Assembly (NCBI GenBank): GCA_024401455.1
Contig: JAKSLA010000033.1
Coordinates: 1 to 34,148 of the forward strand
Direction of reading: 5' to 3'
From: Paludibacteraceae bacterium
Lineage (GTDB): Bacteria > Bacteroidota > Bacteroidia > Bacteroidales > Paludibacteraceae
Length of the DNA stretch: 34,148 nucleotides
The position numbers and the translations under genes are program-made. Positions within the stretch are counted from its first letter, which is position 1. Each line of letters starts with the position of its first letter. Positions 1-17,024 of this stretch are shown in pieces. The notes below the pieces were generated by a model. It worked only from the letters and a program-made list of their open reading frames with translations, was not told where the DNA came from and ran no database searches.

Positions 1-2813
1 CCGTTTCTCGTGGCAATTCCAAACAATGAAATGAATCCGATCAGGGCAGGAATACTAACCACACCGCCCATCAAGGCGACACTGACCACTCCTCCTATCA
101 GCGCCAAAGGAAGGTTCAGCAACACCACCATCGTCGTACGCGCCTCCTTAAACTCCCGATAGAGCAAGCCAAATATCAGCAATATGGAGAAAATGGAGGT
201 AATCATAATGATACGGGAGGCCGCCTGCTCACTCTCAAACTGGCCACCATATTGCACATAATACCCTTCCGGAAGTGTCATATTCTTCTTTATAGCACGT
301 CGGATATCCTTTACAACACCGCGTAAATCCCGATCCACCACATTGGCAGAGATGACAATTCTACGCGCCACATTCTCATGGTTAATCGTATTGGGACCCA
401 TCGAGGAGACGAAATTCGCCAAATCGTGAAACGGCACCTTGCTTCCATTCGCATCCACCAACATCTCTTTAATCGCATTGATATCGCCACGGAAAGCCGA
501 ATCCACACGAAGCACCAACTCATAATTATTGCTGCCCTCATAAACATTGGAAACCACCTTTCCGGCTAAAAGCGTCTCCACCATTGTCGAGAACTGAGGG
601 ATAGTAACTCCATACTTCACCAACATCTCACGGCGAGGGGTAATTTTCAACTGAGGGCGCTCAACCTGCTGTTCAATCATCAAGTCTGCCACACCTTCCA
701 CCTCACTGACCGTGTTTTTTATCTTGCCTGCCACTTCATAGAGTTTGCTCAAATCATCACCAAACAACTTAATGGCAATATTGGCACGCGTACCCGAAAG
801 CATGGCATCTATTCTGTGCGAGATGGGAGAACCGATCTCCACGTTTACGCCAGGCAACGAATTCAACTTTCTTCGCACCTCCTTTTCTACTTCACTCTTT
901 GAACGACTCTTCAATACGAATGGTGCCTCCAATTCAGAGACATTTACGCCCAACGCATGCTCATCCAACTCCGAACGGCCCGTCTTCCTTCCCACCGTGG
1001 TGATTTCAGGAACAGAGAGAAGCGCCTCCTCTGCCATGCGACCTATCTTGTCCGACTCTTCCAACGAAACGCCCGGAATTGTATTGACATTGATCGTAAA
1101 CGAGCCTTCGTTGAACGACGGCAAGAAACTGCGGCCAAAGCCCCAGAAGAGCACCAACGACAAAAAGAAGCAAATCGAAACGACAGTCAAGATCGGTTTT
1201 CGAATCGGCAATGCCCTTTCCAACAAGATGCGATACAACTGCTTCATCTTGACCACCCACGCAGGCTCCGTTGCATCCTTTCCCGAAGATTTGAGCAAAT
1301 AACTACACAATACGGGTGTCAAAGTCAACGCCACAATCGTAGAGGCGAACAAAGAGACCACAAATGAGATGCCAAGCGGCACCAACATACGGCCCTCCAT
1401 TCCCGAAAGGAAGAACAATGGAATAAAGGTCGCCACAATAATCAAGGTGGAATTGAGGATCGGCATACGCACCTCCTTGGAGGCATTGAAGATCAAATCC
1501 AACTTGGAGAGTTGCTGTTCCTTGGGCAACAATGCGTTTTCACGCAATCGCTTATAGATATTCTCCACATCGACTATCGCATCATCGACCAACGAACCGA
1601 TAGCAATCGCCACACCACCCAAACTCATCGTATTGATAGAGAAGCCCAAGAGATTCAACACGACAAATGTCATCATTACCGACAACGGTATGGTAACCAA
1701 CGAGATGACTGTTGTACGCACATTCATCAAGAAGAGGAAGAGGACAATGACCACCAATACGCCTCCTTCGATAAGAGAATCTTTGACGTTATCTATTGAA
1801 CTCTCTATAAAAGTCGATTGCTTGAAAATATCCGTCGAAATCTTCACATCAGAAGGCAAACTTTTTTGCAGATCGGCCAACACCTGCTCTATATTTTCCG
1901 TCAATTCAATCGTTCCCGTATTCGGCTGTTTCGTGACGGTAAGCAACACGGCATTATGGGCTCTCTCCGAAGCCACGCCCAACTTAGGGAATTTCGCGCC
2001 CACCTTCACGTTGGCTACATTCTCCAACAGAATAGAACCGTTCTTATCATATTTAACCACGGCGTGCCCCAACTGCTCTACATCAAAATCCGAAAGCAGA
2101 CAACGAACAATGTACTCATTTCCATAAGCATACATCGTACCGCCCGACGCATTACGCGTCAAGCCCGACGTTGCCGCCAAAACATCATCGAGAGTCACCC
2201 CGTAGTGCTTCATTCGAAGCGGATCCAAATTGATTTGGTACTCCTTGATGTCGCCGCCCAAAATAGAGACCTGCGAGACACCTCCCACGGCAAGCAAACG
2301 AGGACGTATGGTCCAATCGGCCAAAGTGCGCAAATCCATCAGAGACGTGGAAGAATCGGCCTGCCCCGAATCGGCCGTCAAGCCAATAATCATCATCTCG
2401 CCCAAAATAGAAGACTGTGGACCTAAGATCGGCTCACCCACCCCTTCGGGCAACTGATCACCTACGACAGAGAGTTTCTCCGCCACAATCTGACGCGCTA
2501 AATAAATGTCCGTTCCCCAGTCAAACTCCACCCACACAACAGAGAATCCCGTCGTAGAAGAGGAGCGCACCCTACGCACATCCGTAGCACCGTTCAACAC
2601 GGTTTCGATGGGGAATGTCACCATTCGCTCCACCTCTTCCGGTGCCATACCCTCTGCCTCCGTCATCACTACAACCGTAGGCGCACTAAGGTCGGGAAAG
2701 ACATCCACCTCCATCTTTGTAATAGTATGGAATCCAAAAACAATCAGTAAGACTGAACCCACCAAGACAGCCAATCGGCTGCCCAATGACATCTGTATGA
2801 TTTTATTCAACAT
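1..2813 (-). CDS. Heavy-metal efflux RND transporter, CzcA/CusA family (partial, C-terminus outside window)
   Basis: Inner-membrane proton-driven pump of a tripartite metal exporter. The frame is open from an ATG at 2813 to the left edge, giving 937 residues; the family is about 1,030-1,050 long, so roughly the last 100 are missing. Seen directly: an N-terminal membrane segment (about residues 10-30), VDVFPDLSAPTV soon after it, the TM4 proton-relay motif GSLVDDAIVDVEN at about 406-418 with Asp410/Asp411, and FGIATRN near the cut edge. The porter domain carries RIDAMLSGTRANIAIKLFG, closer to what I know of CzcA-type pumps (divalent metals) than to CusA (Cu/Ag), so the metal is left open. It starts 11 bp after the adaptor gene's stop, so the two are co-transcribed. 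The family call is near certain. Confidence 0.95.
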   Translation of the reverse strand, partial: MLNKIIQMSLGSRLAVLVGSVLLIVFGFHTITKMEVDVFPDLSAPTVVVMTEAEGMAPEEVERMVTFPIETVLNGATDVRRVRSSSTTGFSVVWVEFDWGTDIYLARQIVAEKLSVVGDQLPEGVGEPILGPQSSILGEMMIIGLTADSGQADSSTSLMDLRTLADWTIRPRLLAVGGVSQVSILGGDIKEYQINLDPLRMKHYGVTLDDVLAATSGLTRNASGGTMYAYGNEYIVRCLLSDFDVEQLGHAVVKYDKNGSILLENVANVKVGAKFPKLGVASERAHNAVLLTVTKQPNTGTIELTENIEQVLADLQKSLPSDVKISTDIFKQSTFIESSIDNVKDSLIEGGVLVVIVLFLFLMNVRTTVISLVTIPLSVMMTFVVLNLLGFSINTMSLGGVAIAIGSLVDDAIVDVENIYKRLRENALLPKEQQLSKLDLIFNASKEVRMPILNSTLIIVATFIPLFFLSGMEGRMLVPLGISFVVSLFASTIVALTLTPVLCSYLLKSSGKDATEPAWVVKMKQLYRILLERALPIRKPILTVVSICFFLSLVLFWGFGRSFLPSFNEGSFTINVNTIPGVSLEESDKIGRMAEEALLSVPEITTVGRKTGRSELDEHALGVNVSELEAPFVLKSRSKSEVEKEVRRKLNSLPGVNVEIGSPISHRIDAMLSGTRANIAIKLFGDDLSKLYEVAGKIKNTVSEVEGVADLMIEQQVERPQLKITPRREMLVKYGVTIPQFSTMVETLLAGKVVSNVYEGSNNYELVLRVDSAFRGDINAIKEMLVDANGSKVPFHDLANFVSSMGPNTINHENVARRIVISANVVDRDLRGVVKDIRRAIKKNMTLPEGYYVQYGGQFESEQAASRIIMITSIFSILLIFGLLYREFKEARTTMVVLLNLPLALIGGVVSVALMGGVVSIPALIGFISLFGIATRN

Positions 2814-2824
2814 TGCCGAAAGTA

Positions 2825-4081
2825 TTAATGGTTATGACTATGACCTTCCGGAATGGAGGATGACATCGACGCCAACTTCACTTGATATGCGCCCTTAACC
2901 ACCAAACAGTCACCCGCCTTCAAACCAGAAAGCACTTTTATGCGAATGCCATCGCTCTCTCCCAATTTAACCGGCATCTTTCGGTAAAGACCTATACACT
3001 CTTGCACATAGACAAAATTGAGTCCTTGCTCCTCGGTCACCGCCGACAAAGGAATAGACAACACGTCTTTCTCCTCGTTTCCAAGAAGAAAAACTTCCAC
3101 ATAACTATCAGAAAGGAAATTACCCTTATTATCAAATTCAAATGTCACAGGAACAAAAGATGAGGCCGAGGAGGACTTGCCATACGAAAGCAACTTACCA
3201 TTCATCTTATCCAGCGAATAGGTCTCAGAACCATACGAAGGAATAAAGTTCGCCGAACGGAAAGAGCGTAACTGACGGAATCCACAAGCCGGAACATCGG
3301 CTACCAACTGCAGGCGATTGTTTTTCGAAACCACCGCAATAGGCTGGCCTACAGCCACATATTCACCTTGTTTCACCATCCATTGCTTTAAATAGCCCGA
3401 AGTCTTTGACACTACTTTGATGCCTGACGAAGTGGCATGGGAGGAAGAGGCTTGATAGGCAATCCGTGCCTGTTTATAAGCCAACTGAGCCTCGTCAAAT
3501 CGCTTTTGAGAGACAACGCCATCCTTCAATAAGGCCTGAACTCGTTCAAACTCTTTCTCGGCCGACTCATATTCAGCCTTTACCTTTTCAAACGAATCGC
3601 CCCCTTGCAACGTATTGGATGAGATGGATGCCAATAGGGCACCCGCTGAGACAGCAGAGCCTTCCGTAGCATTGCTCAACGTTGCTATACCGGCAGCGGT
3701 AGCCACCACCATCGTCTCGTCACTATTGGTTGTCAGTAACTGTCCTCCGACATGAAGGACAGAAAAGAAGGAACCCAAACGGAGCGTGTCCACCTCGACG
3801 CCCACCCTTGCAGCCTGCTTTGTGGAAAGATGAATGAGGCCATCTTCATCGTGATGATGTCCTTTATGGTCAGGAGCATCATGGTCATGATCGTGCTCCT
3901 CCTCTTCTTCCTCATCCGCATGGTCGTGGTCATGATCATCGTCCTCATCCGCATCATGGTCATGATGATGCTCTTCCGCCTCATCATGGTGATGCCCCTG
4001 CTCATGCGAATGACAAGCAGCCATAGAAAAAGAAAAGAAAAGAAAAAAAGAGAAGAGTAAAGTATAATTAATTTTTCTCAT
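2825..4081 (-). CDS. Periplasmic adaptor (membrane fusion) lipoprotein of metal RND efflux, with His-rich leader
   Basis: CusB/CzcB-type adaptor linking the RND pump to an outer-membrane channel. I chose the ATG at 4081 (418 residues), because it gives a proper signal peptide ending in SMAAC, a lipobox with Cys23; the frame stays open upstream without a plausible signal. Residues about 24-85 are almost only His, Asp and Glu (for example HHHDHDADEDDDHDHDHADE), likely a metal-binding tail on the outer face of its membrane. Then follow a beta-barrel/lipoyl half-motif, a helical hairpin (FEKVKAEYESAEKEFERVQ), a second lipoyl half (GYLKQWMVKQGEYVAVGQP) and a membrane-proximal domain. The protein ends in HSHNH. 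It lies between the small His-rich gene and the pump gene. Function is sure; metal specificity is not. Confidence 0.93.
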   Translation of the reverse strand: MRKINYTLLFSFFLFFSFSMAACHSHEQGHHHDEAEEHHHDHDADEDDDHDHDHADEEEEEEHDHDHDAPDHKGHHHDEDGLIHLSTKQAARVGVEVDTLRLGSFFSVLHVGGQLLTTNSDETMVVATAAGIATLSNATEGSAVSAGALLASISSNTLQGGDSFEKVKAEYESAEKEFERVQALLKDGVVSQKRFDEAQLAYKQARIAYQASSSHATSSGIKVVSKTSGYLKQWMVKQGEYVAVGQPIAVVSKNNRLQLVADVPACGFRQLRSFRSANFIPSYGSETYSLDKMNGKLLSYGKSSSASSFVPVTFEFDNKGNFLSDSYVEVFLLGNEEKDVLSIPLSAVTEEQGLNFVYVQECIGLYRKMPVKLGESDGIRIKVLSGLKAGDCLVVKGAYQVKLASMSSSIPEGHSHNH

Positions 4082-4219
4082 TATAATCCTAAAAAAGAAG
4101 TATTTATAAACTAAACAATACCCCCACTCAAAATCCATCGAGCACGTCAATAATGGGTACGTAATCGCTGATTGAAGGGGAAAGCGAGCAAAATATTCCG
4201 TTTAATGTAAACAAGAATA

Positions 4220-4713: not shown

Positions 4714-5925
4714 TTATTCGCACCCACAAGGGGTGCCCCTACAAATTGGGCCAATCAAACAATAGGCCATGAATTCAGATTCATCACGAATATAAGTCAA
4801 AGGGAGAAAGCCCCTTTCTATTTTCCCATCCTTAATTACGAGCGGATGTTCTTCCTTCATTTGAGAGACAAAAGCACGCAACTCCGTTGAATCGATTCCA
4901 TGCCATATCGTATAACGACCAACTGCCTGCGAAGCCACATAACGCTCAAAAATGACATGAGCAACCACGCCCATATTATAGCGCAAATTCAGTTCTACAC
5001 AAGGATGCAAGAAAACACCTTCGGGAGAGTCACAGATCATCATATCAATACCAAAATAGCCCTCATAATGAGGAGCTAAATGTTCGGACAGGATTTCCAT
5101 CAATGCAGTACGCGCTTCGTCCAAAACTGCGGTTGATACATATTCCGCCAACAGTTGCTCGATACGCTCATCCGAGGCCAAAAGATTGCCACGATAAGTT
5201 CCCGCGACATCCGTCTGAAAGTATGAATAACCCACAAAAGTGAGTTCAGTGCCACTAACCCGAAACTCCATAGCGAAATCTTGCAACTTCGTATAACGAG
5301 GTTCACAAACCACCTCTCCTTGCCGTTTCAAGACATTGTTACACCACGCCGCAACAGAATCCGTCCATCCGCTACGCACCCATAAAAGCCCCTTGCCACT
5401 ACCCGACCACGGCGACTTCATCAGACAAGCAGAGTGAAACGACTCAACAGCGTTTGACAAATCTTCCAAAGAGGAGGCCACAACAGGAATCTTTACACGA
5501 GCATCCAAAGCCCTCTTCGCCTGCATCTGCTTCAAGATAGCAACGGCAAACTGACGACCAGAGAGTTTTCTGTATGCCGCCAAATCAGGCATAGATACTT
5601 TACCGCCACATAGATGTTCTAAACGATCTTCTAAGGCAGGACTCCATCCCCAAGGAATGAAAACATCATCCGAAGAATACACATAATCATCCTCAGACAC
5701 CCACTTCGCACTAATTTTCAAAGCATCAAAAATATCCTTCATATAATCTGAAGGAATATCGCACTGCATTAAAATCAACGAGTTAGCATCATTCTGTGCA
5801 TACCACACAGGAAGCAACGACATATCAGAAGCCAAACGGCGGGCAGGCTTGGGGGCATCATAGCGTTTTTTGCCATGGGCTATCGCCAAATCATTCTCCG
5901 GATTGAATAAATATATGTTTCGCAT
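4714..5925 (-). CDS. Conserved hypothetical protein with ATP-grasp-like features
   Basis: Protein of 403 residues starting at the ATG at 5925 (MRNIYLFNPENDLAIA); further upstream the frame reads as non-protein-like. The start NPENDLA is one I associate with an uncharacterised Bacteroidetes family. The middle resembles an ATP-grasp fold: a nucleotide-binding lysine strand followed by a Gly-rich loop (LMKSPWSGSGKGLLW), then VVCEPRYTKLQDFAMEF, and near the end HYEGYFGIDMMI and a metal-ligand-like motif CVELNLRYNMG. That would make it a carboxylate-amine ligase of unknown substrate. The last residues (about CRGTPCGCE) are encoded by a copy of the dispersed GC-rich repeat, so the natural C-terminus has probably been replaced. 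It stands alone, upstream of the metal operon on the same strand. Confidence 0.8.
   Translation of the reverse strand: MRNIYLFNPENDLAIAHGKKRYDAPKPARRLASDMSLLPVWYAQNDANSLILMQCDIPSDYMKDIFDALKISAKWVSEDDYVYSSDDVFIPWGWSPALEDRLEHLCGGKVSMPDLAAYRKLSGRQFAVAILKQMQAKRALDARVKIPVVASSLEDLSNAVESFHSACLMKSPWSGSGKGLLWVRSGWTDSVAAWCNNVLKRQGEVVCEPRYTKLQDFAMEFRVSGTELTFVGYSYFQTDVAGTYRGNLLASDERIEQLLAEYVSTAVLDEARTALMEILSEHLAPHYEGYFGIDMMICDSPEGVFLHPCVELNLRYNMGVVAHVIFERYVASQAVGRYTIWHGIDSTELRAFVSQMKEEHPLVIKDGKIERGFLPLTYIRDESEFMAYCLIGPICRGTPCGCE
4720..4750. repeat. Dispersed GC-rich hairpin repeat, copy 1
   Basis: On the plus strand it holds GCACCC, a 5-base loop, and GGGTGC, then CCCCTACAAATTGGGC. The tail matches the GCCCCTACAAAATGGGC junction of the array at 14313-14405. 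It lies in the last codons of the ATP-grasp-like gene and so encodes that protein's tail. It may also act as a transcription stop. Confidence 0.55.
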
Positions 5926-6026
5926 AAGTTTGTGCCTTTGTTTGAAATACCTATTTACTGTTTTTCCCGACAAAAGGAGATGTAGTCTAAACCAATACAA
6001 AAATACCCTATGACATCTTCAAGAGA

Positions 6027-8129: not shown

Positions 8130-8735
8130 TCACTTTGTCAAATTTCTACCTTCCTTTGCCGATGAACTATTGGGCTGTATCAACAAGGCCTGCTCGAATA
8201 GAGATTTGGACTTTTCCATATCCTTTAAATAATATGAATTCCAAGCAGAAAGTATAACAACATCATAATCAAACGGATACAAAGAACACATCCGGTCGAA
8301 ATAGTTGGCTGCCACTTTATAATTGGCCATGTTGTAATACATCAGCCCCCTATAGTAATTTGCCTTGTAATTATTCGGATCCAATTTCAGTATGGCATCA
8401 TATTGCGCCCCGACATTCTTCCACGCCTTCAATTTAGCGGCAGGGAGCACATATCCAAGCCTCGCTTCCACCGATGTTGGCTGCAGATTTATCGCCTTGG
8501 AGTAATAATTCAACGAAACGGTATATTGACCATTCTGATAATAAAGCCACCCCAAACGAAGGTTGACGGCATAGGTGTTCTGCTTCAACCCCTCCAATTC
8601 GGCAGCGGCAGCGGCAAATTGCCCGTCGCCCTCCAACTGATAACTCTTGGAGAAGGCTGAATAGACGTCCGATTGCGCCCAAAGCGACAATGGGAAGAGT
8701 ACCCATACGAAAAGTATGTATCTCAAAACGACCAT
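8130..8735 (-). CDS. Secreted TPR-repeat protein
   Basis: Protein of 201 residues with a signal peptide (MVVLRYILFVWVLFPLSLWA, cut before QSD) followed by about four tetratricopeptide repeats, recognisable by spaced W/Y, G, Y, A positions: LRLGWLYYQNGQYTVSLNYY, then ANYYRGLMYYNMANYKVAANYF, and a last one around ILSAWNSYYLKDMEKSKSLFEQAL. TPR proteins act as scaffolds, here in the periplasm. Its start overlaps the end of the barrel gene by 13 bp, so the two are translationally coupled and probably work together. No catalytic motif is seen. The TPR call is strong; the partner is inferred. Confidence 0.88.
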   Translation of the reverse strand: MVVLRYILFVWVLFPLSLWAQSDVYSAFSKSYQLEGDGQFAAAAAELEGLKQNTYAVNLRLGWLYYQNGQYTVSLNYYSKAINLQPTSVEARLGYVLPAAKLKAWKNVGAQYDAILKLDPNNYKANYYRGLMYYNMANYKVAANYFDRMCSLYPFDYDVVILSAWNSYYLKDMEKSKSLFEQALLIQPNSSSAKEGRNLTK

Positions 8736-10210
8736 TTTACTCCTAAAAATATATTGTTAGCATATACTGAATAGTCCTTTCTTTCCACCAATTCGGATGT
8801 CGAAACATAATAAAGCGACGTTTCGCTCTTGACAAAACGATATAGCAAATTCAACGACATCTGGTTAGTGAGCGGAAATATCAAGTTGGAGAACAACTTA
8901 TAGGATGTCTGCGGTTGCAGGGCATAGACCACATTCAGCCTCCGGTCTGAATAACCATTCATATTGCCCCAGAGTCCGCCCAACTCCACCCAAAGCCAAT
9001 TTCTCGCCTTGAAGCCTACCAATCCTTCCAGCAAAACGTCATTGTCCACCAATTCTCGCATCAGATAGGATGCCCGCAAGACCGAATACAAGTCCAAATT
9101 CCCTTTCGGATAATAGAGCCATTGAGCGCTCACTTTCCAAAAGTCCTGCAGCGCGCCATGAAGATAGGTCAGCGCCGCCGAATATTCGGAACGGTAGAAT
9201 TGATTGGCCACCTCCAACTCGAAGGCATAGTTAAACGCATCGTCTTCTACACAATCGAACTTATAGGCATACGTGTCATTCCAATTCCACTCCTGACCTG
9301 GCATTCCCCACCACCACATCATCGGCATATAATAGCCGCCGAAACCTCCAAAGCCTCCAAAGCCATTGAAATTAGGGAAAGGCTGATAAGAATTAGGGAA
9401 TCCACCTCCAAAGCCACCTTGACGAAGAGTGCCCGCCCCATCGTACGGTGGGAAAGGGTTCCCCTGCCACGGGTCAAAAGGCACAAAACCGCCGTTGTCT
9501 CCATTGCCTCCCGCTTTCGCCGTGTCGTAGGAAACCACATAATACCGGTTCTTCACATACGAAAGGTAGGCCGACGGCGTCACTACCCACCCCTTGCCCA
9601 AATGAATGGGGGCATCAATTGTATAACTGAATTGACGGGTGGAAACATCTCCTTTGAAGATGCTGACCGCCATCGAATCCACGTATTGGTCGGCTGCCGA
9701 ATAGGTGTAAGAAACGCTATGCGAAACTTCCGTCATACTGCCTAAGTCATGGCTTACCTTGGCCGTATAGCATTGTCCCGTACCCGAAACGGCTTTCTCC
9801 TGATAGTACAATTCGCTCGGAAGCGAATAATCGCCTTCCACCATATTGAGCAAGCCACCTTCCAAATAGGCCGAACTGACCGTCTTGGGCTTCTCCAACC
9901 GATAGGCTGAACGAGTAGCAGGCGACAAAGCATAATAGAATTGGCGCGCCTCAAAGCCACGGTTCATATAGAGATAGGAGAAGTAGAGCAACTCCTGCGT
10001 CTCAACATCCCATCGGTCCAATTGGTAGGCTCGTTCCAAATAAGTGATGGCACTTGCGTAGTCTCTTTTGCTGAACATCAATCGTCCATTCTCCTTGTTG
10101 AACTCCAATCTCGACTTTTTCACGAAATTCGAGGGCTCGAACTCCTCCGCCTTAACAGAGAAGAGTGAAGAACAAGAAATCAATATGAACAATAAGACAT
10201 ACTTCATCAA
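8723..10210 (-). CDS. Outer-membrane beta-barrel protein with N-terminal TPR and Gly/aromatic-rich loop
   Basis: Protein of 495 residues. A signal peptide (about 1-21) is followed by a short TPR-like region (about 35-95: LMFSKRDYASAITYLERAYQLD). From about 110 to the end the sequence alternates polar and hydrophobic residues and ends in VKWSF, as expected for a Bam-inserted barrel with a C-terminal aromatic. Residues about 233-310 form an unusual loop rich in Gly, Phe, Pro, Trp and Met ([20 protein letters not shown]). The TPR-plus-barrel plan resembles YaiO-type proteins; that is a guess. It sits 36 bp after the UT-M23 gene and overlaps the TPR gene, so all three form one operon. Confidence 0.8.
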   Translation of the reverse strand: MMKYVLLFILISCSSLFSVKAEEFEPSNFVKKSRLEFNKENGRLMFSKRDYASAITYLERAYQLDRWDVETQELLYFSYLYMNRGFEARQFYYALSPATRSAYRLEKPKTVSSAYLEGGLLNMVEGDYSLPSELYYQEKAVSGTGQCYTAKVSHDLGSMTEVSHSVSYTYSAADQYVDSMAVSIFKGDVSTRQFSYTIDAPIHLGKGWVVTPSAYLSYVKNRYYVVSYDTAKAGGNGDNGGFVPFDPWQGNPFPPYDGAGTLRQGGFGGGFPNSYQPFPNFNGFGGFGGFGGYYMPMMWWWGMPGQEWNWNDTYAYKFDCVEDDAFNYAFELEVANQFYRSEYSAALTYLHGALQDFWKVSAQWLYYPKGNLDLYSVLRASYLMRELVDNDVLLEGLVGFKARNWLWVELGGLWGNMNGYSDRRLNVVYALQPQTSYKLFSNLIFPLTNQMSLNLLYRFVKSETSLYYVSTSELVERKDYSVYANNIFLGVKWSF

Positions 10211-10246: not shown

Positions 10247-12376
10247 TCAGTTCAGAAACAAAATTTTCACAATATTGTTTGGTCCCATAATGTCCACCTC
10301 ACTTATTTCATGCTGCTTGCAACAAGTGCGATAAAGAACTCTCGCCGTTTTAGCATTGACAATGAGATCTACCGTGCTTAGTTGCGCTATTGCCGTTTTC
10401 ACAAAGGCGTATTGCATATCAGCATAGACCCAAAATGGAGCAACTACATCTTGGAGAAATTTCATGAGGCCTCCCCGCCAATCCTCCAACGACATGACAT
10501 CCGTCACTTTACCTACTTCTACAAACGGCACATGGTAATTGGAACAATAGAAATGATAAAGAGCGCATTTTTCGCTGCCTTCATAACGAAGGAACCTGAA
10601 TTGTAGGCCGTCACACGAGAACCATGCCTTTACATTCTTTTTCTTCAGGTAAAAATAGGTGCCACCCCACGCATCTTCTTCTACGGTCCAACGCTCCTCG
10701 CCCCACAGTTCCGAACTCACCTTGACCGTCTGTCCCTTCGAAAAAGAATAGGCCTTTGCCATAGATTCATCGATTGGCAGGTTGGAAATGGACTCTCCAT
10801 TTTGGGGTTGAGCATCCGTAACTATATTTCCGTCAGCGACATACAATCCCATACGATAATCAAGTGTGGGTGCTCCCATCTGTGGATACGCCTGAAACTG
10901 GAAATGAAGGTGAGGAAACGGAGAATACCCCGAATTACCACAAAGCGCCAATATATCACCCTTGGACACTTTCATCCCCACGTTCCTCATAATCGTCCCT
11001 TTTTGCAGATGGCAAACGGCGGAATAGAGTTGTTCTCCATGTTTCAACACAATATAATTTCCCCAATTATTCACAGTATCCACTGCCCCAACGCCATTAT
11101 CGTCCAACCCATCATAAACGGCAGCCACAACACCTGCTGCTGGAGCAACCACCGGTTTGCGGAAACAATAATAATCGGTCAACTTGTCGCCCAGACCTTT
11201 GTATTGCCGTTTTTTCTCATCGGTCACCACAAAATCCCAAGCATAACGCCACGAACCTTTATGCGTATATTCGCCATTGATCCCCTGAGAGACCGTCCAT
11301 TCGCCCATAAACGGCCAAATGGCATCCAATCCATAATTCTTTCTGCCCGAAGTTCGATTATAATTGTAATAGTAAAATGTGCTTTCCGGCGTATCCCCCC
11401 GATAATAGGCCAACTGCAACGATTCGGAAGGCTTTTTTCTACCCAAAACATAAAGATAAACCACCGTAACTATACAAAACGGAAAGGTGAACGGAGAAAA
11501 ATCGATATAGGAAGAAATCACCCCAAAAAGCAACAGCACGACCAAGTGTAACGGAGCCAGCAACAACGCCCAAAGATAAGACTTTAAGGACGGTACGACA
11601 AAATAACACCCGACAGCAATCGAGGTGAGAATAAAATTGAAGCCATAAGAATAAAACGGGATTCCCCAGTTCTCGTCAACTACCGCCACCGCTCCTATCA
11701 AGAAATAGAGAATTGTATGCACAGCAAACGAAAGTGTAAAAGCCATTCGGGAGAAACAGAGCAAAGCAACTGCCATTATCACACCACAAAACACATTGGT
11801 CTGAAAGAAAATTGACGAGAAACTTTGGAAATAGGCATAAATAAATTCGGGTAGTATCGAATACAATAACCAATTCTGCATAAATGCAAACGGCTGGACG
11901 GCAACGACATCGGCCAACAAATCGCCCTCTCCAAACGAAACGAACTCCATCATCTGCCGTAATGGATCTGCCAATAGAATGGCTGTCTCAATGGCGAATA
12001 AAAAAGGGAAGGCTAAAAAAGGGAGCCTCAACCGTTCGCCAACAGACTCAAACGCAAAAGTCAAAAACAACGTGAGTAGGGCGAGCAGAAACAAGGCTAA
12101 AAAGTTGCACGGAAAAAAAAGAGGCAATGCCAAACCGGTAAAAACGGCATTGAATCCATAAATGCCTGTGGAAACTTTTGCTAAATCCTTTCCCAAAAGC
12201 AAAGCAAAGCCATTGGCAAACAAACAACTCAAAAGGCCACACAAACCTCCCAACGGATAGATAAAAGAGAGCAACAAAAGAACGCACCCATACCACAGGC
12301 TTTGTGAAAAAAAGATAGAAGAGTAGCTCAATACTACTCCTCTACCAAACTCTTTTATGCGAGACCATCTCTTCAT
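10247..12376 (-). CDS. Urea-transporter-family membrane domain fused to an M23 (LytM-like) peptidase domain
   Basis: Protein of 709 residues from the ATG at 12376; a TTG at 12439 could add 21, but the domain begins after the ATG. About the first 310 residues are strongly hydrophobic with urea-transporter signatures (YGFNAVFTGLALPLFF in one half, YGFNFILTSIAVGCYF in the second), fitting the internally duplicated UT fold. After a linker comes an M23 domain: RYAWDF (about 377-382), GNYIVLKHG, YSAVCHLQKG (His456) and the zinc motif HLHF (His489, His491). The first M23 zinc ligand, normally a His four residues before the Asp, is Arg here, so activity is uncertain. About 200 further residues follow with no clear domain. 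UT-M23 fusions exist in Bacteroidetes, from memory. It leads the operon with the barrel and TPR genes. Confidence 0.85.
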   Translation of the reverse strand: MKRWSRIKEFGRGVVLSYSSIFFSQSLWYGCVLLLLSFIYPLGGLCGLLSCLFANGFALLLGKDLAKVSTGIYGFNAVFTGLALPLFFPCNFLALFLLALLTLFLTFAFESVGERLRLPFLAFPFLFAIETAILLADPLRQMMEFVSFGEGDLLADVVAVQPFAFMQNWLLYSILPEFIYAYFQSFSSIFFQTNVFCGVIMAVALLCFSRMAFTLSFAVHTILYFLIGAVAVVDENWGIPFYSYGFNFILTSIAVGCYFVVPSLKSYLWALLLAPLHLVVLLLFGVISSYIDFSPFTFPFCIVTVVYLYVLGRKKPSESLQLAYYRGDTPESTFYYYNYNRTSGRKNYGLDAIWPFMGEWTVSQGINGEYTHKGSWRYAWDFVVTDEKKRQYKGLGDKLTDYYCFRKPVVAPAAGVVAAVYDGLDDNGVGAVDTVNNWGNYIVLKHGEQLYSAVCHLQKGTIMRNVGMKVSKGDILALCGNSGYSPFPHLHFQFQAYPQMGAPTLDYRMGLYVADGNIVTDAQPQNGESISNLPIDESMAKAYSFSKGQTVKVSSELWGEERWTVEEDAWGGTYFYLKKKNVKAWFSCDGLQFRFLRYEGSEKCALYHFYCSNYHVPFVEVGKVTDVMSLEDWRGGLMKFLQDVVAPFWVYADMQYAFVKTAIAQLSTVDLIVNAKTARVLYRTCCKQHEISEVDIMGPNNIVKILFLN

Positions 12377-12466
12377 AAGCCGAATAATTAAGGGGACTTC
12401 TAAAAATTGCTTCACCTCGATTTCTGAAGAACCTATCAAGATGGCGACAAAAATCCAAGAACACGC

Positions 12467-12553: not shown

Positions 12554-14011
12554 TTATTTCTTATAGGCTGCGTCAGGAAGGCCTTCTCCCTTATTATTGA
12601 TATAATATTGACGGCCGCCATAATAGGCAACAGCCATGCCATTTTTCTCTGGCGTACCACATTTATCACAAACGAACGGAATCAAGACCTTCATATCCTT
12701 CACTTTACAAAGGCCGAACTTTCCTTCGTCATTCATCAGCCACATCACGCCATTCTCTGTCAATGGAGTTCCGAAATGTGCAGTCGTTGAATCAACGTAT
12801 GGATCGTATATGAATGGGCCCCCTTTCAATCGCTTTCCTGAAATCGAATAAAATGAAAAGCCCGAAACAACAGAATCTCCAAACTGAACATCATCGAAAA
12901 CCTTCACATTTCCACTTGGATGGAAACGAACCGATTTGTATTTGAGCGGCACGATCTCCTTTCCTTTAAGATTAACCGCGCCATATTTTCCAGCATCGCC
13001 GACAATATGAGCCAACTCCTGATCGTCTTGGTCCAAGAAATCGAACTCGTCATACGGACCTGCCAACTTCTTGGCTTCCGTTGTCCTGAACACCCATTTG
13101 TCCTTCTTGTACTGCCAGCATAGATTATCAACCGTCTTCAAAATGAGAACCGACTTACCTCCCCTATTTACAATCTTCAACGGGATGTTTCTCTCCTCGC
13201 CACCTTTGCTAACGACAATATACTTGTTCTTCCAATAGCAGAACTCCTCCTCCGGATACTTCATAACCGATTTGCCGTCGGACGTGTAGATATAATCCAA
13301 GGAATCCTTCTTATTCATACCCACATAAAAGCTAACCGCATTGTTCCAGAATTTATAAGAACGGACATTCTCCCTAAAAGGTACAATCTCCTTCAACTCC
13401 TTACAGTCGAACACAGAAGTAGCAGAGCCGATCGTCACCAACAAATAGTGGTCTGAAATGAATTTAGGTGCCTCACTATAAACATACTCCGAAATCCAAT
13501 TAGTTTTAGGATAAGACAATGCCCACATACCCGTCTCATTACGAAGGGCAAACATATATTCACCATCGGATAAAGTATATACGACATAATCAGATTCATG
13601 ATACTTGACCGGAAGGACCATCAATGAAGAGGGGCCGTAGAAGCCGTGCTTGCCTTCATGGTCAATCAGTCTGGCAAGATTACCACATAAGGTAATGGAA
13701 GAATATTGGGTCGAATCGCCCAAAAATTCAGCGGCAGAATTCAACAAAATGGATTTGCCGTCTTTCAAAAGATTAAAATACTCTGATGACGAAATGATTG
13801 TGTCATACTCTGCAGGATAAACCAACTGACCGGTTTGATCTATCAAGCCGTAATGTCCGACCGAATTCTTCACGACTGCGTAATCACCTTCGAAAGGCAT
13901 GAGTTCGTAGCCACTAACATTCATATTCAGATCTTTTAACTGCTTCTTTGATAGTGCCTGCGAATTTCCCCAACACATCATCAATAAGATAATCGCAACT
14001 ATGTTCTTCAT
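12554..14011 (-). CDS. Secreted WG-repeat protein
   Basis: Protein of 485 residues with a signal peptide (MKNIVAIILLMMCWGNSQA). Several degenerate WG-type repeats can be seen, each with a glycine turn and an I/V-P strand: VGHYGLIDQTGQLVYPAEYD at about 51-70, GKHGFYGPSSLMVLPVKYH, GKYGAVNLKGKEIVPLKYK, and GKFGLCKVKDMKVLIPFVCD near the end. WG repeats form beta-rich proteins of mostly unknown role, often on the surface or in the periplasm. It is transcribed alone: a hairpin terminator follows and the pqqD-like cassette ends 390 bases upstream. The repeat family is recognised; the function is not. Confidence 0.8.
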   Translation of the reverse strand: MKNIVAIILLMMCWGNSQALSKKQLKDLNMNVSGYELMPFEGDYAVVKNSVGHYGLIDQTGQLVYPAEYDTIISSSEYFNLLKDGKSILLNSAAEFLGDSTQYSSITLCGNLARLIDHEGKHGFYGPSSLMVLPVKYHESDYVVYTLSDGEYMFALRNETGMWALSYPKTNWISEYVYSEAPKFISDHYLLVTIGSATSVFDCKELKEIVPFRENVRSYKFWNNAVSFYVGMNKKDSLDYIYTSDGKSVMKYPEEEFCYWKNKYIVVSKGGEERNIPLKIVNRGGKSVLILKTVDNLCWQYKKDKWVFRTTEAKKLAGPYDEFDFLDQDDQELAHIVGDAGKYGAVNLKGKEIVPLKYKSVRFHPSGNVKVFDDVQFGDSVVSGFSFYSISGKRLKGGPFIYDPYVDSTTAHFGTPLTENGVMWLMNDEGKFGLCKVKDMKVLIPFVCDKCGTPEKNGMAVAYYGGRQYYINNKGEGLPDAAYKK

Positions 14012-14312: not shown

Positions 14313-14405
14313 GGGCGGGCGCATGGCATTGGGCGGGCACAAGGCACGGGGCGGGCACAAGGCACTGCCCCTACAAAATGGGCGGGCACAAGGCACCGCC
14401 CCTAC
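14313..14405. repeat. Tandem array of the GC-rich hairpin repeat, copy 2
   Basis: Four 18-base units starting GGGCGGGC (14313-14330, 14331-14348, 14349-14366, 14380-14397). The last two are each followed by GCCCCTAC, giving hairpins such as GGGCGG / CCGCCC (14380-14385 with 14396-14401). A partial unit precedes the first (ACACATGGCATT). The right end contains the stop codon of the decarboxylase gene. GC content is far above its surroundings. Confidence 0.8.
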
Positions 14406-15730
14406 CCTTCTTTTTCACAAACATCAGACAATGATTCAGACTGCCTAACACGAACAACGCTGCCATCCGACTTCACCATCACTACATTGGGACGCAACGT
14501 GATGAACTGCATCCATTGGGTGACATTATAGGCACCTACATTATGGATGACAAGATGGTCGCCCCGGTTCAAAAGCGGAAGGCAAACATATTCTCGAATC
14601 ATATCGATATTCATACAAAGCGGACCGAACAACGAGACATCTTCAAAATATTTGGAGTACGGCTGTGCCGGTGAAATCTTGTGGTCGTACCAAAAAGAGG
14701 TGAAAAGCATATTGACGCCAGCATCGATTACAACATATCGACGCCCCGTTGCCGAACGCTTGTTTGAAAGAACCGTGGAAAGCAAATACCCAGCATCGTC
14801 AATCAATGCCCTACCCGTTTCCAAAACAAGCATAGGAAGTTCTGACGTCTTGAAAGGCACCTTGTATATTGCCTCCGTGATTGCTTCCGCATAATCGTCA
14901 AACGAAGGACAGACATCCGGCCCCACCAAATAGGAAGCCTTCAGCGTATTGTGTGAGGCAAACCCTCCACCTAAATCAATATATTCCAACCGTACGCCCA
15001 ACTTTTGCCAGACATCGTAGGCCAAACGCGCCATCTTTTCGGACGCTTTAGCGTAAGCCTTCGTGGAGAGGATGAATGTGCCGATATGACAATGCAATCC
15101 CTTCAAATCAAGTTTCTCCATCTGAGCCACTTTCGCTATGGCACTCCAAGCCTGACCATCCTCCAAGTTGAAACCGAAACGGTCCCACTTTTGAGCCAAA
15201 CCTGCATCCAGATTGACACGAATCGCCACTTTAGGACGTTCAGCCTCCTCGTCGGCCACTTCCTCCAAGAGATACAACTCGTCCAAACTATCTAAATGGA
15301 TAAATGCCCCTTTCTGAACCGCTTTGCGCAAATCCTCCTTGGTCTTGGCCGGACCATTGAAAAGGATATGGGAGCCTTGAACGCCATTCTTCACCGCCTT
15401 GTCAAACTCAAAGCCCGAAACGACCTCTGCCCATGACCCCTCTTCGTGAAAGATCTTGCAGATGCTACTCAAATAGTTGGTCTTGTAGGACCAAGCGAAC
15501 TGCACCTTGGGATAGCGCGTTGCAAAAGCACGTTTCGCTGCCTGAATGTTGGATCGAACCGTCTGCTCGGAAAAGGCGAATAAAGGCGAGCCATATTCAC
15601 GCACCAAACGATCAACAGAGAGTCCGTCTATCTCCGTCACGGGAGAAAGGTAGGTGTCAGTCCCCACCTTGCCCGGCATCATTGCATTTATCGGCTTTAT
15701 CAAAGGCCTTTCATATCTTCGTTTTTCCAT
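14402..15730 (-). CDS. PLP-dependent decarboxylase, diaminopimelate/carboxynorspermidine decarboxylase-like (fold type III)
   Basis: Protein of 442 residues. Alanine-racemase-fold barrel: the PLP lysine is Lys83 in FAWSYKTN; LHCHIGT at 212-218 matches the HxHxGS phosphate/ring motif; IDLGGGFA at 251-258; LETGR at 303-307 stands where diaminopimelate decarboxylase has EPGR; GPLC with Cys372 and Asp376 is the cross-subunit active-site loop; GAY at 399-401. It should decarboxylate a basic or dicarboxylic amino acid. The ETGR change and the cassette context argue against a plain lysA. It starts 12 bp after the ATP-grasp gene. Its stop (TAG) falls inside the GC-rich repeat array, so the extreme C-terminus may not be ancestral. 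The enzyme class is strong; the substrate is unknown. Confidence 0.88.
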   Translation of the reverse strand: MEKRRYERPLIKPINAMMPGKVGTDTYLSPVTEIDGLSVDRLVREYGSPLFAFSEQTVRSNIQAAKRAFATRYPKVQFAWSYKTNYLSSICKIFHEEGSWAEVVSGFEFDKAVKNGVQGSHILFNGPAKTKEDLRKAVQKGAFIHLDSLDELYLLEEVADEEAERPKVAIRVNLDAGLAQKWDRFGFNLEDGQAWSAIAKVAQMEKLDLKGLHCHIGTFILSTKAYAKASEKMARLAYDVWQKLGVRLEYIDLGGGFASHNTLKASYLVGPDVCPSFDDYAEAITEAIYKVPFKTSELPMLVLETGRALIDDAGYLLSTVLSNKRSATGRRYVVIDAGVNMLFTSFWYDHKISPAQPYSKYFEDVSLFGPLCMNIDMIREYVCLPLLNRGDHLVIHNVGAYNVTQWMQFITLRPNVVMVKSDGSVVRVRQSESLSDVCEKEG

Positions 15731-15742
15731 ACACCTTTATAT

Positions 15743-16786
15743 TCAATGGTTATGCTTCACTCCCGTTACGGAGAACTCGGCAAATTCGGATTGGTCAACT
15801 ATCATATCCCACGAATAGCGAACAAACATCTTTCCCACCGCGTATTTTTGTTGAGGCTCAACCTCTTGGCCCAAAGCAAGATGCACCAACATTTCGGGGA
15901 TATTCACACCTGCCGCAGTGGATAAGTACACCCAAGCCGGGATGCGGGGATTCACCTCCAATACATATAAGTCACCGTTTTTCGCTTTTATCAACTCCAG
16001 TTCAAACGCACCACACCAACGAGTGGCAAATTGCTCCGCCAAACGGATGATTCGTTCATCACAGATTGAGACACCTGCCCAAGCCTTTCCCTTGTCTGTA
16101 ATATACTGCTTCCTCATTGGAACAGCAGCCAGAAGCCGTCCATGCCCATCACTACATCCTATCACATTGAACTCCACCCCATCAATGTACTCCTGCACGA
16201 TGGCCGGTGCCCCCCAACAAGATATGATGTGCGAGAAAACAGACAAAAAATGTTCCTTGTCCGAAACGACATACGCCTCATAGAATTTTCCTTTCAAGAC
16301 CACGGGATAGTTCCATTCCTCCTTGAAAAAGGCTTCCGGCGAAGTACAATTGAACGACTTTGGGGACCGAATGCCACAACTATTGCAAAAAGCCTCCAAA
16401 TTATATTTTTGCCTTGACTCAAATTGCTCAAACGTAGGCAAAAAAAGATGCATTCCTATCCGAAGAAGATCGGCACGCAACTTTATATATGAGAAAAGTT
16501 CTGCATCGAAATTGGGTATCACCACATCAATCTTCTCCACTTCCTGAATCTCCTTCAAACGTACCCACAAGGCATCCGCACCCGCACTTGGATATGGGAC
16601 CTGATAACAGACATCCACCAAATCTTTCATATACGCGCCGGGCTCCAGCATCTCATAACAAAAGCCAACAATGCGACAGTCAAAAGAGGTGGCCTCCTTC
16701 AAACTACGAATGACAGGGACACCCGGACCAGGATTGTCCACCGCATTCAAACCCGTAACTGCTATGGTATAAAACGGTTTAGTCAT
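15743..16786 (-). CDS. ATP-grasp carboxylate-amine ligase (CarB/PylC-like)
   Basis: Protein of 347 residues. An N-terminal Rossmann-like part (IAVTGLNAVDNPGPGVPVIRSL) leads to the ATP-grasp fold: VVIPNFDAELF at about 88-98, Lys165 in YPVVLKGKF (ATP phosphate contact), IVQEYIDGVEFNV at about 196-208 (adenine-binding hinge), and the metal site with Glu264 in FELELIKAKNG and Glu277/Asn279/Arg281 in LEVNPRIPAW. This is the layout of carbamoyl-phosphate-synthase-like and PylC-like amino-acid ligases, which join an acyl-phosphate to an amine. Its start overlaps the PqqD-like gene by 8 bp, and the decarboxylase follows 12 bp after it. Substrates cannot be told from sequence. Confidence 0.88.
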   Translation of the reverse strand: MTKPFYTIAVTGLNAVDNPGPGVPVIRSLKEATSFDCRIVGFCYEMLEPGAYMKDLVDVCYQVPYPSAGADALWVRLKEIQEVEKIDVVIPNFDAELFSYIKLRADLLRIGMHLFLPTFEQFESRQKYNLEAFCNSCGIRSPKSFNCTSPEAFFKEEWNYPVVLKGKFYEAYVVSDKEHFLSVFSHIISCWGAPAIVQEYIDGVEFNVIGCSDGHGRLLAAVPMRKQYITDKGKAWAGVSICDERIIRLAEQFATRWCGAFELELIKAKNGDLYVLEVNPRIPAWVYLSTAAGVNIPEMLVHLALGQEVEPQQKYAVGKMFVRYSWDMIVDQSEFAEFSVTGVKHNH

Positions 16787-17024
16787 TCATCAAAATATCG
16801 TATTGTTGCAACAGATGTAGGAAATCAGCAAAATCACAAAGGAAGATGGACTTAGGCACATCATACCGGGAAGTAATCTCTTCTGTGATTTCATCGCGGT
16901 CTTTGCCCTCTTGAAGCATTTTCATCACCTCTATGGCAGTCGGATTCAAGGAAAAACTCTCTCCCGTCTGTGGATTAAAGACATACCCAGACTGACTTAT
17001 CGCTATATTACCATTTATCTTCAT
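16779..17024 (-). CDS. PqqD-like small protein (possible peptide-binding RRE-type domain)
   Basis: Protein of 81 residues, about the size of a single PqqD domain. The pattern fits the family: GYVFNPQTGESFSLNPTAIEV (strand, turn, then the L-N-x-x-A helix start), EGKDRDEITEEI, then a C-terminal helix ending FADFLHLLQQYDIL. PqqD-like domains (RiPP recognition elements) are winged-helix folds that bind a precursor peptide and present it to a modifying enzyme; PqqD-like proteins also occur where no peptide is known. An AAGGAG stretch sits only one base ahead of the ATG, unusually close for a ribosome-binding site. It is the first gene of the cassette and overlaps the ATP-grasp gene. No precursor peptide gene is visible nearby. 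Confidence 0.75.
   Translation of the reverse strand: MKINGNIAISQSGYVFNPQTGESFSLNPTAIEVMKMLQEGKDRDEITEEITSRYDVPKSIFLCDFADFLHLLQQYDILMND

Follow-up and report, generated by a model that had tools for sequence, protein, structure and literature searches.

Three closely packed genes of a Paludibacteraceae bacterium encode a PqqD-like protein, an ATP-grasp ligase and a pyridoxal phosphate (PLP)-dependent decarboxylase. The genes lie on contig JAKSLA010000033.1 of assembly GCA_024401455.1, of which positions 1-34,148 (34,148 nt, the whole stretch analysed) are called here the window. An earlier note, made from the sequence alone, described three minus-strand genes with an 8-bp overlap and a 12-bp gap, and coordinates and Pfam matches agree: the PqqD-like protein with an RRE fold (RiPP recognition element, where RiPP stands for ribosomally synthesized and post-translationally modified peptide; 16779..17024, 81 aa, Pfam PqqD E 3e-12) overlaps by 8 bp the ligase of the carbamoyl-phosphate-synthase (CPS)-like group (15743..16786, 347 aa, ATPgrasp_Ter E 1.6e-13), which is followed after 12 bp by a fold III (alanine-racemase-fold) decarboxylase of conjugate-decarboxylase type (14402..15730, 442 aa, Orn_Arg_deC_N E 6.7e-36). 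As judged from sequence comparison, these genes head a six-gene operon kept in many Bacteroidota, and the decarboxylase carries a lasso-leader-like tail that covaries with the RRE-fold PqqD protein.

The conserved unit of the window continues beyond the trio, down to position 8130. The cassette that the earlier note placed at 14402..17024 therefore stands as a conserved trio but covers only half of the unit, the channel-peptidase, barrel and TPR genes having been left out. In core order, PqqD, ATP-grasp and decarboxylase are followed on the minus strand by a fusion of a urea-transporter-family channel with an M23 metallopeptidase (10247..12439, 730 aa; Pfam UT E 2.1e-39, Peptidase_M23 E 2.7e-13), a predicted secreted outer-membrane (barrel) protein with a TPR-like N-terminus (8723..10210, 495 aa; weak TPR matches only) and, as the final gene, a TPR protein (8130..8735, 201 aa; Pfam TPR; N-terminus signal-like by eye). 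Eighty named loci, the best 80 of at least 580 confirmed matches of the ATP-grasp profile, were compared. All six genes stand in this order on one strand in 57 of them, as scored with profiles built largely from those same loci, and 21 lack only genes that fall past the end of the contig or sequence. The two exceptions are L060, in which the TPR gene was not recognised, and L104, in which about 1.1 kb follows the decarboxylase gene and no channel gene was found. A further 20 loci were compared, L171 from the same order and the other 19 from elsewhere in the phylum (other orders and classes); the succession PqqD, ATP-grasp, decarboxylase, channel recurs in 19 of the 20. At the 19 distant loci the TPR profile matches 15 and the barrel profile six, the barrel being the least recognisable part of the operon; the channel gene is recognised only in part in L156 and lies in two frames in L164. 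In a first survey of 41 genomes, the source included, a strong ATP-grasp match was found in 12 besides the source genome, with PqqD adjoining in 12/12 and the decarboxylase in 11/12 (in two pieces in L011; the contig ends in L010). The trio thus travels together in many genomes, and the earlier concern that its members might be neighbours here only has fallen away. Two kinds of irregular locus were also seen: L171 (G098:C58) holds an ATP-grasp paralogue (~240 bits) with no recognised PqqD or decarboxylase adjoining, the main copy being present elsewhere in its genome, and in L030 and L109 the decarboxylase gene is in two open reading frames (ORFs), by assembly error or decay.

About 32 residues precede the catalytic domain across the decarboxylase family (residues 1-32 in the window, 15635..15730, minus strand), and their pattern is that of a leader peptide. 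A motif [YF]xxPx[ILVM] with a Lys 15 residues past the Tyr/Phe is present in 94/94 full-length decarboxylases, and a Gly two residues after this Lys in 93 of the 94; the set comprises the window, 74 of the 80 named loci and 19 of the 20 further loci, short, split and missing decarboxylases being excluded. In a second, partly overlapping set, the Lys is found in 82/82 and the Gly in 81/82. Other ORFs at the same loci, ≥200 aa long and compared over their first 60 residues, served as control: of 633, none has the motif plus Lys and 20 have the motif without it. Among these 633 ORFs a narrower form of the motif occurs in none and a wider form in 49, the narrower one fitting 90 of the 94 decarboxylases. 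According to PMC10368454, lasso peptide leaders have YxxPxL at positions −17 to −12 ahead of Gly1, and according to PMC6784204 the cleft of the lasso RRE takes the YxxP and a conserved Leu of the leader. On this scale Y6, P9 and I11 of the window tail equal −17, −14 and −12, K21 equals −2 and G23 equals +1.

The nearest solved relatives of the PqqD-like protein are the lasso RREs TbiB1 and TfuB1 (E 2.7e-12 and 4.2e-9). In both, an Asp aligns with PqqD residue 64 (codon 16833-16835), which is placed in the presumed last helix by our own helix assignment, and this residue covaries with tail position −17. Over 93 loci the two columns top the 2187 tail–PqqD column pairs: a tail Tyr is matched by Asp in 72 loci and Asn in 8, a tail Phe by Tyr in 10, Ser in 2 and His in 1, without exception, the division into acceptor (Asp/Asn) and non-acceptor classes having been chosen after these loci were seen. 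A held-out set of 86 loci (74 newly fetched, 12 earlier) included four that went unscored, no decarboxylase being found in the sequence available; the 82 scored comprise 14 repeats of earlier pairs and 68 new ones, which share ancestry with the first set. All 68 new pairs obey the rule, with Asp/Asn beside 49/49 Tyr and with Tyr, Ser or Ala beside 19/19 Phe. That tail Tyr goes with Asp/Asn and tail Phe never does so holds in 162/162 unique loci (130 with Tyr, 32 with Phe).

A tree built from the ATP-grasp proteins of these 162 loci, midpoint-rooted and with one relevant branch of low support (0.47), shows eight Tyr/Phe changes. When exact residues are followed, position 64 needs 15 changes and both sites jointly also 15; therefore, all eight Tyr/Phe changes can fall on branches where position 64 changes. 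The coincidence of class changes (8/8, against 0/20,000 random placements) follows from the perfect association and adds only the number of switches. With all four segments compared, the tail −17 and PqqD 64 pair ranks second of 224,848 between-segment pairs. The first is ATP-grasp 206 with decarboxylase 397 (window numbering), just before the GAY motif, a pair that may reflect a shared substrate varying among clades, or clade structure only. Taken together, the lasso-RRE relatives and the covariation bear out the recognition role that the earlier note gave to PqqD, and in all probability PqqD docks onto the decarboxylase by its tail, which is the best-supported step of the scheme developed below.

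Could the tail be more than a docking site? It might itself be the substrate, presented by PqqD and loaded with an amino acid at K21 by the ligase; the enzyme that bears it would decarboxylate this amino acid, and the M23 peptidase would cut near G23 to free the product. The constancy of Lys and Gly at the places of lasso −2 and +1 speaks for this self-carrier, as do the lasso precursors themselves, in which the leader motif precedes Gly1 (PMC10368454), the complete M23 ligands (65/65, see below) and the precedent of BtrK, which, according to PMC7857480, decarboxylates an amino acid bound to a carrier protein. To use up one enzyme molecule as the carrier for each product molecule would be expensive, however, and a tail used for docking alone could be conserved at K21 and G23 for structural reasons. 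The self-carrier is accordingly considered improbable. Its extended form, in which the M23 domain cuts at the mouth of the urea-type channel that serves as the exit for the product, so that a peptidase-coupled exporter would process a leader forming part of a metabolic enzyme, is also given a low probability.

Another possibility is a RiPP pathway with its precursor peptide encoded elsewhere, the decarboxylase tail being a secondary dock. An RRE-fold PqqD protein adjoining an ATP-grasp ligase, in an operon with channel, barrel and peptidase components, would suit such a pathway, and the earlier note had proposed both a modified peptide with a distant precursor and a search for a conserved short ORF nearby. 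BLAST clustering of 694 small ORFs (18-110 aa) at 79 loci brought no conserved short ORF to light in the vicinity of the operon; the largest clusters span six loci, are for the most part antisense ORFs immediately upstream of PqqD and seem to arise as by-products of a repeated operator. A profile of the tail, run against 12 genomes, matched the decarboxylase alone (next best E 0.11), and the idea that the tail is a motif common to several proteins was dropped on this result. With the leader motif on the decarboxylase itself and both searches negative, a free precursor peptide was rejected, with the limit that a precursor bearing only the short YxxP motif, or a weakly conserved distant one, would escape both. 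A RiPP pathway of this kind is therefore held to be rather improbable.

The two enzymes offer an indication of the chemistry. In the ATP-grasp ligase, the residues that the earlier note had found in place, K165, E277, N279 and R281, are each conserved in 81/81 sequences; CPS-like NCBIfam models match, all below their cut-offs, and the CPS large chain matches at E 1e-15. PylC-type ligases act on the side chain of lysine, in keeping with loading at K21 in the self-carrier reading. A Ter-operon ATP-grasp system was considered and rejected, no TerD-type gene being present among the ten window proteins scanned with Pfam. In the decarboxylase, K83 and C372, also noted earlier, are kept in 75/75 sequences. 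Searched as a single sequence against solved structures, it matches FslC/FigC (7kh2, N-citrylornithine decarboxylase) with 207 bits, diaminopimelate decarboxylase with 158 and BtrK with 117, whereas an alignment-based search, one LysA included, places diaminopimelate decarboxylase (299) and FslC (297) about equal.

One alternative identity for such an enzyme would be an ordinary lysA product with accidental neighbours, and its TIGR01048 lysA score (242.5 bits) is indeed as high as its FslC score (242.8 bits). Both scores, however, are below threshold (cut-offs 297.9 and 500), and the residues fit poorly: Met at 373, beside the catalytic Cys, and Thr at 344, at the position of the diaminopimelate-binding Arg, are found in 75/75 decarboxylases, whereas the LysA of the same genome (locus L001) has Glu and Arg at the matching positions. 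This separate LysA scores 432 bits with TIGR01048, so the cassette enzyme is not the sole diaminopimelate decarboxylase of the genome, a point on which the earlier note had made its reading depend. A LysA identity was rejected on these grounds and is extremely improbable.

The same two residues point elsewhere. According to PMC7857480, FigC has Met for the acid adjoining the catalytic Cys and Thr for the diaminopimelate-binding Arg, and is grouped with SbnH, AcsE, MccE and BtrK. The amino-acid substrates of these enzymes are attached to a larger partner. By its residues, then, the decarboxylase appears to have lost the means of binding free diaminopimelate and resembles enzymes acting on a conjugated amino acid. 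The FigC citrate contacts His357, Arg387 and Asn389 align, in our own reading of the FigC numbering, to I375 (75/75), Q405 (75/75) and M407 (68/75), and a citrate-siderophore enzyme was rejected because citrate-contacting residues are absent. Because Met and Thr are as in FigC and the citrate contacts are not kept, the substrate presumably has its side-chain amine already acylated, by a partner other than citrate. Of the earlier suggestion that ligase and decarboxylase would yield an amide- or amine-containing metabolite, the sequence of an amide-forming type of ligase and then an amine-forming decarboxylase finds support.

The fusion protein is the fourth member of the unit by position and a nearly constant companion by occurrence. 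Among 198 genomes of the order, the ATP-grasp gene (E ≤1e-40) is found in 85 and a UT domain in 97; ATP-grasp and fusion occur together in 83, ATP-grasp alone in two (78% and 83% complete), the fusion alone in two and neither in 111 (Fisher p = 7e-51, uncorrected for relatedness). This table sets aside 12 genomes whose sole UT match is short and stand-alone, and the fused class is assigned by frame length, G056, G116, G140, G173 and G195 being counted as fused despite UT frames <600 aa or cut by the contig. The short stand-alone class covers 13 genomes (one below cut-off), of which only G209 has ATP-grasp, and this genome has the fusion too. The UT domain scores 135.9 bits against a Pfam cut-off of 25, and the C-terminal region beyond M23 has no Pfam match. 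The peptidase set H393, D402, H477, H510 and H512 is conserved, each residue in 65/65, its assignment as catalytic (H, D, H, HxH, with a wider H–D spacing) being our own reading. Lys plus Arg are denser in the presumed inside loops than in the others in 65/65 proteins (mean 11.0 in 61 residues versus 3.9 in 92, with loop boundaries set by us), and the inside loops rich in these residues include the segment joining channel and peptidase. Because of this charge bias, and because both ends of UT-B lie inside the cell (PMC5700210), the M23 domain is predicted to face the cytoplasm. Downstream, the barrel gene keeps its position across loci, its protein has an N-terminus that is signal-like by eye, and a relative in L061 weakly matches VexE (E 5e-5); the TPR gene overlaps the barrel gene by 13 bp, with an equal overlap in 47 of the 57 gene pairs measured.

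Regulation brings in a further candidate, a metallophore or a metabolite of metal or oxidative stress. Here an AraC-type regulator would control both the operon and a DUF2202 gene, and the product would bind metal as citrate-diamine siderophores do; such a function would be compatible with docking. Seventy-five loci had sufficient upstream sequence to be checked for an AraC-family gene on the same strand, ending ≤1.5 kb upstream; 29 have one, upstream of PqqD in L061 (L061:7030-7629) and 28 others, and the remaining 46 showed no such regulator there. Several of these family members have an N-terminal KNMxCxCC-like stretch, with no Pfam match for that part. A tandem element, AATYTYATACA-N10-AATTTYRTAACA, precedes PqqD in 10/10 genomes (≤2 mismatches; backward control 0). 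The pattern was taken from the upstream sequences themselves, so matches at the ten cassette sites could be foreseen, and the genomes were picked after the element had been seen upstream in most; information comes from the extra sites alone. There are seven of these, five before DUF2202 genes (L126, L127, L128, L130 and L132, among operator loci L116-L132), which presumably encode ferritin-like proteins; the L126 protein has two DUF2202 stretches. A DUF2202-like gene also stands directly upstream of PqqD, on the same strand, in L072, L074, L076, L081, L108 and L112 (Pfam-checked in L072 and L108). The kinship of the decarboxylase to FslC/FigC would agree with such a role, whereas the loss of the citrate contacts does not, nor does the lack of a match to any siderophore synthetase family in the ten proteins of the window that were scanned. 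In the window itself, the element has no match at ≤3 mismatches and no AraC-type gene was seen beside the operon. On balance a metal- or stress-related product, including one binding metal in the siderophore manner, is unlikely, though less so than the other alternatives discussed.

Other genes at or near these loci deserve brief mention. Between the decarboxylase and channel genes of the window lies a WG-repeat protein gene (12554..14011, minus strand, Pfam WG_beta_rep); at that place it is present in L024-L026 and L036-L037 only and not in the other neighbourhoods viewed, and as it is restricted to close relatives of the window it was rejected as a core member. A gene for a protein of 276-318 aa is inserted between the same two genes in L044, L041, L058, L065 and L095, the L044 copy belonging to the IF-2B family. 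Genes resembling, by eye, those of cell elongation stand shortly before the operon in L048, L049, L050, L054, L055, L061 and L069 (RodA-like, 419-422 aa; PBP2-like in L055). In the window, positions 4714-6000 (minus strand) encode a 428-aa protein without Pfam or NCBIfam match, and positions 3-4150 (minus strand) a histidine-rich protein (2825-4150) and a 937-aa ORF leaving the window, by eye resembling a metal efflux pair. A defence system was also considered and set aside, PADLOC giving no match for six proteins.

What, then, would the operon do? In the favoured scheme, the ATP-grasp enzyme would join an amino acid to a partner by an amide bond; PqqD, as an adaptor, would grip the decarboxylase tail and hold the decarboxylase beside the ligase; and the decarboxylase would strip the carboxylate of the conjugate to leave an amine. 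That amide formation comes before decarboxylation seems somewhat more probable than not. The small product would then leave through the urea-type channel, with M23 on its cytoplasmic side, and the barrel/TPR pair; for export the chances appear evenly balanced. The whole picture, a biosynthesis-and-export operon for a small amide or amine with PqqD docked on the decarboxylase tail, has in our estimate about an even chance of being right.

Several points weigh against it. Docking alone leaves the invariance of K21 and the near-invariance of G23 unexplained. The distance from tail to catalytic domain is nearly fixed (77 residues in 91/93), and part of the tail may thus be structural. In one arbitrary exact-residue reconstruction, only four of the eight Tyr/Phe changes fall on branches where position 64 changes, and other high between-segment pairs show that clade structure inflates the covariation measure. 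On the export side, a channel of the urea type normally passes very small molecules only, the predicted topology depends on those self-set loop boundaries, and recognition of the barrel in a minority of distant loci is unfavourable too. Finally, the regulon tied to the AraC-type regulator gives some hint of a stress response, of which the scheme makes no use.

If the scheme is correct, metabolic enzymes have taken over leader recognition of the RiPP type as a means of docking with one another, and a search for leader motifs on enzymes, in place of small peptides, could reveal pathways of this kind. The switch between Tyr with Asp/Asn and Phe with other residues provides a ready-made test of specificity. 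As an exporter, a urea-type channel that bears a peptidase domain on its inner face would be unusual. The product would be an unknown, widespread metabolite, its producers living in animal guts, in lakes and in other waters, as the record titles indicate. The ATP-grasp gene is present in 85 of the 198 genomes of the order and in 27 of 296 genomes phylum-wide (E ≤1e-60), yet no description of the operon was found in the literature searches made.

The operon can be compared with several known systems. With lasso precursors it shares the leader motif and its spacing to Gly, and with the discrete lasso RREs (B1 proteins TbiB1 and TfuB1), its closest solved PqqD relatives, the Asp at the residue-64 position. 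It is unlike the lasso system in having the leader on an enzyme and not on a small precursor, and Lys in place of Thr at −2; neither a lasso B2 peptidase nor an asparagine-synthetase-like cyclase family was found by Pfam, in a search confined to ten proteins of the window. The channel resembles the urea transporters dvUT and UT-B in its UT domain, in both GFN motifs, which are largely kept, and in the charge pattern of an N-in/C-in protein, and differs by the M23 domain and C-terminal region fused onto it. FslC/FigC of rhizoferrin synthesis has the same Met beside the Cys and Thr for the diaminopimelate Arg; the cassette enzyme differs in its sub-cut-off score and in having no citrate-binding residues, and no citrate-using synthetase occurs among the window proteins scanned. 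From BtrI/BtrJ/BtrK of butirosin synthesis the cassette departs in that its small protein has a PqqD/RRE fold and is no acyl carrier (no carrier-protein family with a phosphopantetheine site was found by Pfam among the same ten proteins) and in that its decarboxylase is nearer FslC than BtrK. What the two sets have in common is a small binding protein, an ATP-grasp enzyme of the CPS/BtrJ group (a grouping given in PMC4431377) and an alanine-racemase-fold decarboxylase for a tethered amino acid.

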